A stretch of 34,271 nucleotides of DNA. It comes from Methanoculleus sp. Its GTDB lineage: Archaea > Halobacteriota > Methanomicrobia > Methanomicrobiales > Methanomicrobiaceae. The notes below the pieces were generated by a model. The model made no database searches and was not told the DNA's origin. It was given only the letters and a program-made list of their open reading frames with translations. The translations under genes and the position numbers were made by a program. The stretch is taken from assembly GCA_011045995.1 (NCBI GenBank), contig DSBQ01000044.1, forward strand, positions 1-34,271. Reading direction: 5' to 3'. The stretch's first letter is position 1; every line of letters starts with the position of its first letter. This document shows positions 12,128 through 16,159 of this stretch, piece by piece.

Positions 12128-14323
12128 TTATGCGAGGTAATCGGCGGGCACGGGGATCTGTTCCTTGAGGCCCTTCCTCTTCCGGATGGCCTGGACGATC
12201 TCCTTTAAGAGGCCCTGGGGGACGGTCTCGAAGCCGGCGAACTCCGTCGACCACATGGCACGGCCTTCGGTTGCCGAGCGGACATCGCCTGCAAACCCGA
12301 AGAGTTCTGCAACCGGTGCCTTGCCGATGACGGTGATCGTGTCACCCTCGGACTGCATGTCGTAGACCTGCCCGCGGCGGCCCTGGATCTGTGAGGTTGC
12401 GGCACCCATGTGGTCCTGCGGGACGGTGATCTGGATGTTCTGCATCGGCTCGAGGAGCGAGTCGCCGGCAAGGAGGAGGCCAGCCTTCACGGCGGACCGG
12501 ACGGCCGGGATGACCTGTGCGGGGCCACGGTGGATGGCATCCTCGTGGAGCTTGACATCGATGAGGCGGATCTTCGTGTTCTGGACCTGCTCGTCGGCGA
12601 GCGGACCGCCGGCAAGCGCCTCGCGCCATCCGTCGAGGACCAGTTCCATCGTCTCGTTCAGGTACTGGATACCCTTCGTCATGTCGAAGAACATGTTGGT
12701 CGTCTGGATGGCGGTGAGGTTCTTTGCCTCGTCCTTCTCAAAGCCCGCCGCGATGAGCTTCTCACGGCGTTCGATCTCGGGAAGGTCCATGGAGATTTCG
12801 CCGTCCTTGATCATCTTGACAACCTCGGGGGGGAGGGGCTCAAGCTCGATGTAGAAGCGGTTATGGCGGTTCGGTGACTTTCCTTCGACCGGGCCCGCGG
12901 TGGTGGTGATCGTCTCACGGTACACCACAATCGGGGGCGAGGTCTTGATCTCGACACCCTTGTCACGCCCGATACGGTGGGTGATGATCTCGAGGTGGAG
13001 CTCTCCCATACCGGAGATCAGGTTCTCTCCGGTCTCCTCGTTGATCGTGACCGCAACGGTCGGGTCTTCCTTGCCGACCTGGCGGAGCACCTCGACGAGT
13101 TTCGGGAGGTCCTTCATGTTCCTCGCCTCGACCGCGACGGTCATGACCGGTTCGGAGTAGTGCTTGAGCGACTCGAAGGTCTGCATCTCCTGGAGGGAGG
13201 TGACGGTCGATCCGACGATCGCGTCCTTGAGGCCGGTGACGGCGGCGATGTTGCCCGCGTTCAGGGATTCGACCTCGATACGCTCCGCACCCATGAAGAT
13301 ACCCACCTGCGAGAGGCGGTTGGCCTTCTTTGCGGTGCCCATGACATACAGCTCGGACCCGCGGCGGATCGTGCCGGAGAAGAGACGGCCGGTGGCGACC
13401 TCGCCTGCGTGGGGGTCAAAGGATATGTCGGTCACCATCATGCAGGCCGGACCGTTCGGGTCACACGTGAGCATCGACTTGCCTTCGGCGGTGGTCGGGT
13501 CACCGTGCTGCCAGATGATCGGGATACGGCGCTTCTGGGCCTCCAGCGGGTTGGGAAGGTGGCGCACCACCATGTCGAGAAGGACATCGGTGAGCGGGCT
13601 CGACTTTGCAAGCTCCTTCATCTGGCCTGCCTGGCACTTCTCGTTGACTTCCTTGAAGGAGACGCCGGAGGTCTTCATGTACGGGATGGAGACGGCCCAG
13701 TTGTAGAGGGCGGAGCCGAACGCGACGGTGCCTGCTGCGGCATCGAGCTTCCAGCCGCTCTTGTAGGCATCCTCGTTCATGCCCTTGATGAGCTTGTTGA
13801 CCTTGTCGATGACCTTGCCGAGGCGGATCATCAGTTCCTGGTCGTCGACCTTCAGCTCGTTGATCAGGCGGTCCACCTTGTTGATGAAGAGCACCGGGCG
13901 CACACCCTCCTTGAGGGCCTGGCGCAGCACGGTCTCGGTCTGGGGCATGGTGCCCTCCACCGCGTCCACGACGACGACAGCACCGTCCACTGCACGCATT
14001 GCACGGGTCACGTCACCGCCGAAGTCCACGTGGCCGGGGGTATCGATCATGTTGATGAGGTACTCCTTGCCGCCGTAGGTGTGGACCATCGAGACGTTCG
14101 ATGCATCTATGGTGATGCCGCGTGCCTGTTCCTCCTCGTCGGAGTCCATCCAGCACGCCTTGCCTGCAATCTCTTCGCTGATCATCCCGGCCCCGGCAAG
14201 AAGGTTGTCGGAGAGAGTGGTTTTTCCGTGGTCGATATGGGCCACAATGCCGATGTTGCGGATATGCTCCGGCTGGCTCATCAGCGTGGTGACTCGTTCA
14301 ACCATCTTTCTTCTTCTGGTCAT
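12128..14323 (-). CDS. fusA: Translation elongation factor 2 (aEF-2)
   Basis: A 731-residue GTPase that drives ribosomal translocation. The G domain shows [11 protein letters not shown] (P-loop), RGITIDAS (switch I), [11 protein letters not shown] and NKVDR. The C-terminal domain IV carries [13 protein letters not shown] with His598, the residue converted to diphthamide in archaea and eukaryotes. Length is normal. The start [11 protein letters not shown] fits the family (MxRRKKMVERV), which favours the ATG at 14323 over the internal one at 14305; GGATGAAAT precedes it. It is 25 bases after uS7 and last in the str-type operon. Confidence 0.97.
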
Positions 14324-14348: not shown

Positions 14349-14972
14349 TTATCGTGCGGATTTCGCCACACGCTCGCGTTCTTCTTTCTTTCCGACAGAG
14401 AAGCACCGTGCATCACCGTTGGCAGCAGCGATAAGCTCGTCTGCGAGGACGGCCGATGCGGCGCGCTTCTTCTTGTGGCTGCCCTGGCGCACTGCACGGG
14501 CAATGAACATCAGTGCCGCATCGATACGGCGCTGGGGTGCGGTATCGACCGACTTCGGGACATTGATGCCACCGTACTTCAGGCGGACGGTCTCCTCGCG
14601 GGGCCCTGCGTTTGCAATGGCATCGATGAGCACCTCGACGGGGTTTTTGCCGGTCTTCCTGTTGATAATATCGAAGGCATCGCTCACGATCTTGGTCGTA
14701 ACGGCCTTCTTGCCGGTGTTCTTCTCCGACTGCATGAGGCGGTTGATGAGGCGCTCGACGATGAGCATATCGCTCTTTGCAAACTGGGTGCCTGCCCGCT
14801 TGCCGCAGGAGTGCGGCACGATCATGGACTGGATATTGACATACCTGACCAGACCCGGATCCCTGACCTGGACCTCCGAGATATCCCACTTGTTAAAGAG
14901 GAGATAGGAAGGGGCGGTCTTTTCGACCTGTTCTTCGCCAACGGTCGCTTCTGTGATGTTTTCCTCGGTCAT
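14349..14972 (-). CDS. rps7: Small ribosomal subunit protein uS7
   Basis: A 207-residue archaeal uS7 that organises the 3' major domain of 16S rRNA. It has an acidic N-terminal extension (MTEENITEATVGEEQ), then the conserved KWDISEVQVRDPGLVRYVN, NRKTGKNPVEVLIDAIANAGPREE and the end RRIDAALMFIARAVRQGSHKKKR. An in-frame GTG at 14981 overlaps the uS12 stop, but I choose the ATG at 14972. The sequence GGTGAT, a perfect match to the 16S anti-Shine-Dalgarno tail, lies 4 bases upstream of that ATG and overlaps the uS12 stop codon. Translation of uS12 and uS7 is therefore probably coupled. Confidence 0.95.
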   Translation of the reverse strand: MTEENITEATVGEEQVEKTAPSYLLFNKWDISEVQVRDPGLVRYVNIQSMIVPHSCGKRAGTQFAKSDMLIVERLINRLMQSEKNTGKKAVTTKIVSDAFDIINRKTGKNPVEVLIDAIANAGPREETVRLKYGGINVPKSVDTAPQRRIDAALMFIARAVRQGSHKKKRAASAVLADELIAAANGDARCFSVGKKEERERVAKSAR

Positions 14973-14977
14973 GACGA

Positions 14978-15406
14978 TCACCTGCGCGGCTTCTCCTTCT
15001 TGCCGGTCACCATCTCGTGAAGCGAGACGTTGTTCACCGCGGTGACCTGGAACCGGACACCCGGGATATCTCCCTTCGACCGGCCAAGCCTTCCGCCGAT
15101 ACCCTCGATGGTCACTTCGTCGTGTTCATCGATGAAGTTGATCGCACCGTCGCCGACGGCGAATGCCGTGACCTGACGGCCGTTTTTGATCAGCTGCACA
15201 CGGACACATTTCCGGATGGCCGAGTTCGGCTGTTTTGCCTCGACACCCACCTTCTCGAGCACGATGCCGCGTCCCTGCGGGGCACCCTCGAGCGGGTCGG
15301 ATTTGACGTCGAGGCCGAGCTGACGGCGGGCGTAGTTGGTGTCGCGCCAGCGGTTTTCCTTGGAGGTGCGCTTACATTTTCGCGCAGCAAATTTTCCGTT
15401 TCCCAT
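14978..15406 (-). CDS. rps12: Small ribosomal subunit protein uS12
   Basis: A 142-residue archaeal uS12, the decoding-centre protein. It shows [43 protein letters not shown], in which the [10 protein letters not shown] loop contacts the decoding site, and [22 protein letters not shown]. Length and start ([10 protein letters not shown]) fit the archaeal family, with GAAGGTAATC just upstream. It is first in the S12-S7-EF-2 unit. The RNA polymerase and NusA genes that often precede it in archaea are absent; the divergent neighbour is queD. The operon must therefore have its own promoter in 15407-15739, where a multi-stem structure would lie in its leader. Confidence 0.96.
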
Positions 15407-15488
15407 TGATGATTACCTTCGTGATTCTTCGTGAGATAGGCAACGCTTTTCACAGCATATGCCGGCAGATGAAATTGATGATCAGACC

Positions 15489-15589
15489 GTGGGTGAGAAT
15501 CAGTCCCCGCAGGGGGGTTTTCGCCGTTGAACCCCTATTTTGCGGATTAAGGTGCTGATGCTCCTTTACTGATTCTCCGCCGCTCCCAC
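15489..15589. ncRNA. Candidate structured RNA, three-way-junction fold (unrecognised)
   Basis: The outer stem is GTGGG (15489-15493) with CCCAC (15585-15589). A perfect 10-bp stem follows, GAGAATCAGT (15495-15504) with ACTGATTCTC (15568-15577). Inside it are two arms. Arm 1 is CCGCA (15507-15511) with TGCGG (15541-15545), then GGGGTT (15514-15519) with AACCCC (15530-15535), which wobble pairs extend. Arm 2 is AAGG-T-GC (15549-15555) with GC-T-CCTT (15560-15566) and a TGAT loop. All stems nest. The strand is not settled: on minus it would be at the 5' end of the rps12 operon mRNA; on plus it lies upstream of the likely queD promoter. I do not recognise a known family. Confidence 0.5.
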
Positions 15590-15627
15590 AAGATATCAGA
15601 TTTCTGCCCATATGTTGGGCGGTAAAA

Positions 15628-15638
15628 GGTATTAAAGG
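15628..15638. promoter_or_regulatory. Near-symmetric TATA box, likely for queD and possibly for rps12
   Basis: GGTATTAAAGG reads CCTTTAATACC on the other strand, and both resemble archaeal TATA boxes. On plus it is preceded by the purine-rich TAAAA, a good BRE, and would start queD mRNA about 75 bases before its ATG. On minus a start about 25 bases away falls just before the outer stem at 15589. Confidence 0.45.
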
Positions 15639-15739
15639 TGATTCCCCTGTGCATCCCATGCCGCGCGGGGGCGGGGACGGGGGGGACGAATGAAACATTT
15701 ACCATCCGGGGTGCGCAAGGTGATAGGGAGGATACAGCC

Positions 15740-16159
15740 ATGGCTGGTACAACACGCATTTATAAAGAGGTTTACTTCGAGGCGAGCCACCGTCTCCTGC
15801 ACTACAAGGGGAAGTGCTTCCGCCTCCATGGCCACCAGTGGCGTGTCGAAGTGTGGATGGAAGGTGCGGTCGAACCCGCGTCGAAGATCCTGCTCGACTA
15901 CAATACGATAAAACAGGTCGTGGGCCGCTTTGACCACCAGGTCATTCTCAACAGGGACGACCCGATGGTCGGCTGCCTGTCACAGTTCCAGGAGGTCATC
16001 ACGACCGAGGGGGACCCGACGAGCGAGAACCTGGCCGGCATCATCGCGGGCATGATCAACGACGCCTGTGCCGGGGCGGGCATCGATGCGGGGATACGAA
16101 AGATACGGGTGTGGGAATCGACCTCCTGCTATGCAGAATGCGTCTATGAAGATCAATGA
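15740..16159 (+). CDS. queD: 6-carboxytetrahydropterin synthase QueD
   Basis: A 139-residue enzyme of the 6-pyruvoyl-tetrahydropterin synthase family, which converts dihydroneopterin triphosphate to 6-carboxy-tetrahydropterin for preQ0. Zinc ligands are His17 (EASHRLL) and His30/His32 (RLHGHQW), with the catalytic Cys26 in GKCFRLHGH; TSEN follows and the C-terminal Glu is in VWESTSCYAE. The ATG at 15740 has a strong AGGGAGGAT site 6 bases upstream; the open frame back to 15638 is not family-like. First of queD-queE-queC. In archaea preQ0 goes to archaeosine at tRNA position 15. Its last codons overlap the first copy of a duplicated queE start. Confidence 0.94.
   Translation: MAGTTRIYKEVYFEASHRLLHYKGKCFRLHGHQWRVEVWMEGAVEPASKILLDYNTIKQVVGRFDHQVILNRDDPMVGCLSQFQEVITTEGDPTSENLAGIIAGMINDACAGAGIDAGIRKIRVWESTSCYAECVYEDQ

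Follow-up and report, generated by a model that had tools for sequence, protein, structure and literature searches.

In Escherichia coli the ribosomal protein uS7 is the repressor of the str operon (PMC10931766), and in archaea L7Ae is known to autoregulate via a k-turn in its own 5' UTR (PMC5539422). Only few archaeal cis-regulatory RNAs have been described and the control of the archaeal S12-S7-EF-2 unit has been little studied. In this paper we describe a structured RNA element next to this unit in a Methanoculleus contig, of which a stretch of 34,271 nucleotides was analysed (the window). The unit lies on the minus strand and includes rps12 (uS12, 14978-15406, above the cut-off of NF003254/TIGR00982), rps7 (uS7, 14349-14981, above the cut-off of NF003106/TIGR01028, with a listed frame that shares 4 nt with the end of rps12) and the aEF-2 gene (12128-14323, 1141 bits with TIGR00490).

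A preliminary description of this DNA had proposed a multi-stem nested fold at 15489-15589, and all the stems that it named are present, including the arm of two stacked helices and the arm with a single T-T mismatch. The 5-bp outer stem (GTGGG/CCCAC, 15489-15493 with 15585-15589) is helix P1, formed in the RNA by the 5' strand GUGGG and the 3' strand CCCAC. The perfect 10-bp stem (GAGAATCAGT/ACTGATTCTC, 15495-15504 with 15568-15577) is P2, with GAGAAUCAGU as 5' strand and ACUGAUUCUC as 3' strand on the minus strand. The 101 bases fold with -46.5 kcal/mol on the plus strand (z -5.6, 0 of 200 shuffles as good) and with -37.5 kcal/mol on the minus strand (z -2.95, 1 of 200 shuffles as good), in line with the earlier view that the pairing is hard to explain by chance. 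The named stems recur with the same nesting in the plus-strand minimum free energy (MFE) structure. The interval itself turned out to be short at both ends. An extra 11-bp helix with a bulged C, P0, encloses the 101-base fold and extends the element to 15471-15608 of the minus strand (15608→15471), about 138 nt, for which our covariance model R1 gives a match of 92 bits (E 2.4e-19). The 5' strand of P0, GAAAUCUGAUAU with an invariant bulged C (15593-15604), pairs with 15471-15481, which reads UCAUCAAUUUC in this genome and AUAUCAAUUUC in most relatives. The 5' end of the RNA at 15608 is the predicted transcription start. The conserved internal-loop strand AGCGGCGG is found at 15577-15584, and its last base, 15577, also opens P2 in this genome. 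The two inner arms (15505-15567) differ between genera, and other stems take the place of P2 in other genera. No tRNA or tmRNA was found by ARAGORN.

The comparison with relatives drew on 150 genomes of the order, with rps12 located in 146 of them, and on the 28 genomes of the family Methanomicrobiaceae (GTDB), each of which yielded the gene. Of these 28 family members, 25, representing eight of the nine genera, carry a homologous element upstream of rps12, and it is absent from the genus g5 and from the rps12-upstream regions read in other families. The conserved pieces on the minus strand are, in order, AGAAAUCUGAUAU, GUGRC and AGCGGYGG, and at the far end GYCAC followed by AUAUCAAUUUC. Across the relatives P0 is formed by GAAAU-C-UGAUAU with AUAUCAAUUUC, with one bulged C, and P1 by GUGGC with GCCAC. 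The conserved core consists of a 16-bp basal helix, in which the bulged C is invariant, and of the internal-loop strand GCGGYGG, whose alignment columns are invariant in the 25 homologues.

The covariance check on the rps12-upstream regions of relatives, which had been suggested together with the fold, revealed compensatory changes in the basal pairs. P1 occurs as GUGGC/GCCAC, GUGAC/GUCAC and CCGAC/GUCGG, and P0 shows A-U to G-U changes at four pairs, which keep the paired state on the minus strand only. In 12 distinct rows and 16 pairs, four basal pairs are altered on both sides, and pairing in the basal helix amounts to 97.4% on the minus and 91.7% on the plus strand. None of 500 shuffles attains this pairing percentage or the covariation score, in a count for which rows were trimmed to homologous columns with the variable interior swapped for a short linker, and which favours the structure because it was picked from those same sequences. 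With a fixed register over 25 sequences and 15 basal pairs there are 336 Watson-Crick pairs, 25 G-U pairs on the minus strand, 6 G-U pairs on the plus strand and 8 other combinations. The interior wobbles of three stems also lean to the minus strand (14 to 0, 9 to 4 and 17 to 5), where the register of the first two stems was set on the minus strand and is biased towards it, and that of the third was fixed. The MFE is lower on the minus strand in 22 of the 25 carriers, with means of -41.5 kcal/mol on the minus and -34.4 kcal/mol on the plus strand. The genus of the window belongs to the few in which the plus strand folds better, and hence the preliminary description could not pick a strand. RNAalifold returned no structure for the whole set, as the inner arms are rebuilt between genera, and class-wise folds were used instead. 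Since the inner arms are not conserved between genera, any binding site must sit in the basal part.

R1 was built from the carriers, and searches with it hence test for absence elsewhere and for absence of further copies. Run against 199 genomes from the order and 232 from the class, R1 matches exactly the 25 carriers, with 85-123 bits, and everything else scores about 22 bits or less. There is one copy per genome, always upstream of rps12; one genome has a second match at chance level (21 bits). Weak matches of 20-22 bits in the family f6 were rejected as chance, as the one that was inspected (L080) falls within an ATP-grasp-like reading frame. When non-carrier loci were searched with R1 and filters off, nothing was found above 9.5 bits. 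A three-part exact pattern found 15 stretches in 84,980 genome species, 14 of them in records that carry the name of a Methanomicrobiaceae genus, of Methanomicrobiales or, once, of Euryarchaeota; the remaining one is in a bacterial record and was taken as chance. Against Rfam 15 the window has no match at gathering score, with chance-level weak matches only in a local scan, and 19 related loci have no match up to E = 3. A limited search of the open-access literature, which is no proof of absence, did not find a description of the element either. The element appears to be an undescribed RNA and matches no Rfam 15 family, in line with the preliminary description, which recognised no described archaeal family.

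All 25 carriers possess a TATA-like box (TTTAATA, TTTATTA or ATTAATA) on the minus strand, whose centre precedes the first base of the RNA by 22.5-25.5 nt; this is the usual spacing between TATA box and start site in archaea. In the window this putative distal rps12 promoter is TTTAATA at 15630-15636. A strong TATA box (TTTATATATTG in plus-strand letters), located some 78 nt from the S12 start codon, is present in most non-carriers, among them g5. The carriers have a degenerate form of this old proximal site, which there overlaps with the 3' side of P0/P1; exceptions are the genus g8 and, in part, a few others. The two carriers of g8 still have a good proximal TATA box, and part of their S12 mRNA may therefore lack the RNA. 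The fixed spacing of the distal box and the decay of the proximal one in carriers suggest that the S12 promoter most likely moved upstream, to just before the RNA. The distance from the RNA to S12 is 59-67 nt in 20 of the 22 loci measured and 182-184 nt in one genus, while queD lies anywhere between 132 and 1153 nt away from the RNA. Because of this near-constant S12 distance, the variable queD distance, the conserved minus-strand box and the decayed old promoter, the RNA most likely represents the 5' leader of the rps12-rps7-EF-2 mRNA. Of the two strand readings that had been put forward, a minus-strand S12-S7-EF-2 leader and possible control element is thus favoured by covariation, strand-specific wobbles, the minus-strand promoter at fixed distance, the loss of the ancestral promoter and the S12 distance, and the plus-strand or preQ0 reading is not supported. 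Sequence comparison supports the fold, the minus strand, the single-copy linkage to rps12 and the promoter shift. The locus resembles cis-acting leaders of ribosomal protein operons in its covariation-supported structure and, judged by sequence, in its place in the 5' UTR on the operon strand.

The remaining 64 nt of the leader (15407-15470, minus strand) carry a Shine-Dalgarno motif (SD) AAGGU at 15419-15415 before the S12 ATG, and their longest T run is 2. A possible non-ATG start was seen in several genera (L010, L011, L015, L017, L021, L022, L028, L032-L034), where the rps12 match opens at a TTG after GAGGTG. In four genera (g2, g3, g4 and g7, class A; loci L010, L011, L015, L017-L019, L021, L022, L028, L032-L034) a hairpin loop GCCUCG and a downstream AGAGGC are both invariant and complementary. 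A long-range contact between them with anti-SD pairing is only a possibility, since neither piece varies and the other genera lack the pair. The g8 leaders (L014, L016) contain TTAATAGC...GCTAT(T/A)AA downstream of the RNA, which makes up a second hairpin with AGAGG in its loop. In g5 (L023, L024, L027) the corresponding position in the gap between S12 and queD is taken by a GC-rich hairpin, and there is a GGGCAGAAAT-like remnant; this may be a version of the RNA that has decayed, or an alternative one.

Our best guess for the function, by analogy, is autogenous control via the conserved base of the RNA, which we propose because uS7 represses the corresponding operon in E. coli and L7Ae represses via 5' UTR structures in archaea. 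The RNA would act in cis as the 5' end of a leader of about 200 nt of the rps12-rps7-aEF-2 mRNA in Methanomicrobiaceae, with feedback by an operon product, a proposal for which we consider the chances evenly balanced. Transcription would start at the base of P0, with the first base of GGCAGAAAUCUG or of its counterpart. A product of the operon, with uS7 or uS12 as first candidates and aEF-2 as a less likely one, could then bind the basal helix with its bulged C and the purine-rich GCGGYGG loop. Binding may lower the translation or stability of the mRNA and so exert feedback on the whole unit. The RNA would in this way probably let the cell adjust the output of two ribosomal proteins and a translation factor. 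It counts against this explanation that the element is missing from g5 and from all other families examined. Sequence mimicry of rRNA by the loop ACAGCGGYGGAG, which is reminiscent of the uS7 site of E. coli 16S rRNA and would have spoken for uS7 as regulator, was not supported, as the score of the loop against the 16S rRNA of the genus itself is no better than that of shuffles. For sequence likeness to the uS7 site at h28/h29 of 16S rRNA, 15-44% of shuffled queries score as well, and the 5' segment has no significant sequence similarity to rRNA as a whole. A 14-of-15 match to another 16S stretch was discarded too: it was obtained with the g7 query only, about 5% of shuffles are as good and it was picked after the fact.

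Other explanations place the function outside the leader. An RNA of the plus strand, be it a free-standing sRNA or an element that belongs to the preQ0 (queD-queE-queC) operon, could draw on the better plus-strand fold in the window genome, but it is very improbable given that the plus strand is less paired and less stable in relatives, that the distance to queD varies so widely and that no conserved plus-strand promoter was seen by eye at a fitting distance. The candidate plus promoter AAATTGATAT was rejected: the conserved box is only 16 nt before the helix and the spacing does not fit. We also observed a G-rich stretch before queD (gcgcgggggcggggacggggggg, 15655-15740), which is variable in the two relatives of the same genus. 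It is equally hard to believe that the site works at the DNA level only, as an inverted-repeat operator or the remnant of a mobile hairpin. It does lie between two divergent promoters and CAGATTTCTG in P0 is itself palindromic, but the changes preserve G-U pairs, which are relevant only in RNA, the conserved features include a loop strand and a bulged C that is asymmetric, and the element is present as a single copy and not as a repeat family. An independent, trans-acting non-coding RNA of the minus strand, either transcribed before rps12 or released from it, seems doubtful. The two ends of the element pair together as in stand-alone RNAs, and g8 has a second promoter right after it. Against this, the linkage to rps12 is tight and the loss of the proximal S12 promoter in most carriers means that S12 needs the distal one. 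There is also no conserved U-tract after the RNA, with no U run of at least four between RNA and S12 in most carriers; archaeal termination favours U tracts (PMC8716108).

A further explanation keeps the same 5' leader but makes it a riboswitch or other sensor, whose ligand would be a small molecule or ion, a protein encoded outside the operon, or temperature. A lineage-specific leader RNA of this kind would have arisen with an upstream move of the rps12 promoter by about 150 nt, and would sense something else than the rRNA-mimic binding of its own ribosomal proteins: a metabolite, an ion or an outside protein. It shares the positional and covariation evidence, and the large invariant GCGGYGG with the bulged C, having no likeness to rRNA, does not point to an rRNA-mimic site. 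We nevertheless regard a sensor as unlikely, because the element is present in a single copy per genome, at rps12 only, while many riboswitches control several genes, and because control by ribosomal proteins is the commonest mechanism for such operons. If true, it would be a new kind of sensor of the translation apparatus in archaea.

The element is a compact single-copy candidate that also occurs in cultured species (Methanogenium, Methanomicrobium), and the control of a core archaeal translation operon becomes directly testable. The evolutionary step can be seen in outline, with the old promoter in non-carriers and a new distal promoter with the folded leader in between in carriers.

The feedback leader that we propose can be compared with several known systems. 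The flpD motif (RF01737, Euryarchaeota; PMC2864571) is also a candidate structured RNA of euryarchaea, but the element does not match RF01737. Bacterial ribosomal protein leader families are likewise structured 5' leaders of one ribosomal protein operon in one lineage, whereas the host here is an archaeon and Rfam 15 has no match. The E. coli str operon (PMC10931766) has the same core gene order, S12-S7-EF-G/EF-2, and structure in the operon mRNA could allow feedback in both. Its site is 16S-like and lies between rpsL and rpsG; here the element forms the 5' end of the leader, upstream of rps12, has no 16S sequence likeness, and the listed frames of rps12 and rps7 overlap. The L7Ae leader belongs to other genes, the element described here is far larger, and by inspection we found no k-turn (3-nt bulge, tandem G-A pairs) in the conserved columns and internal loops of P0/P1. 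What the two have in common is that the mRNA of an archaeal ribosomal protein has structure in its 5' UTR, with a TATA box on the upstream side and an SD downstream.
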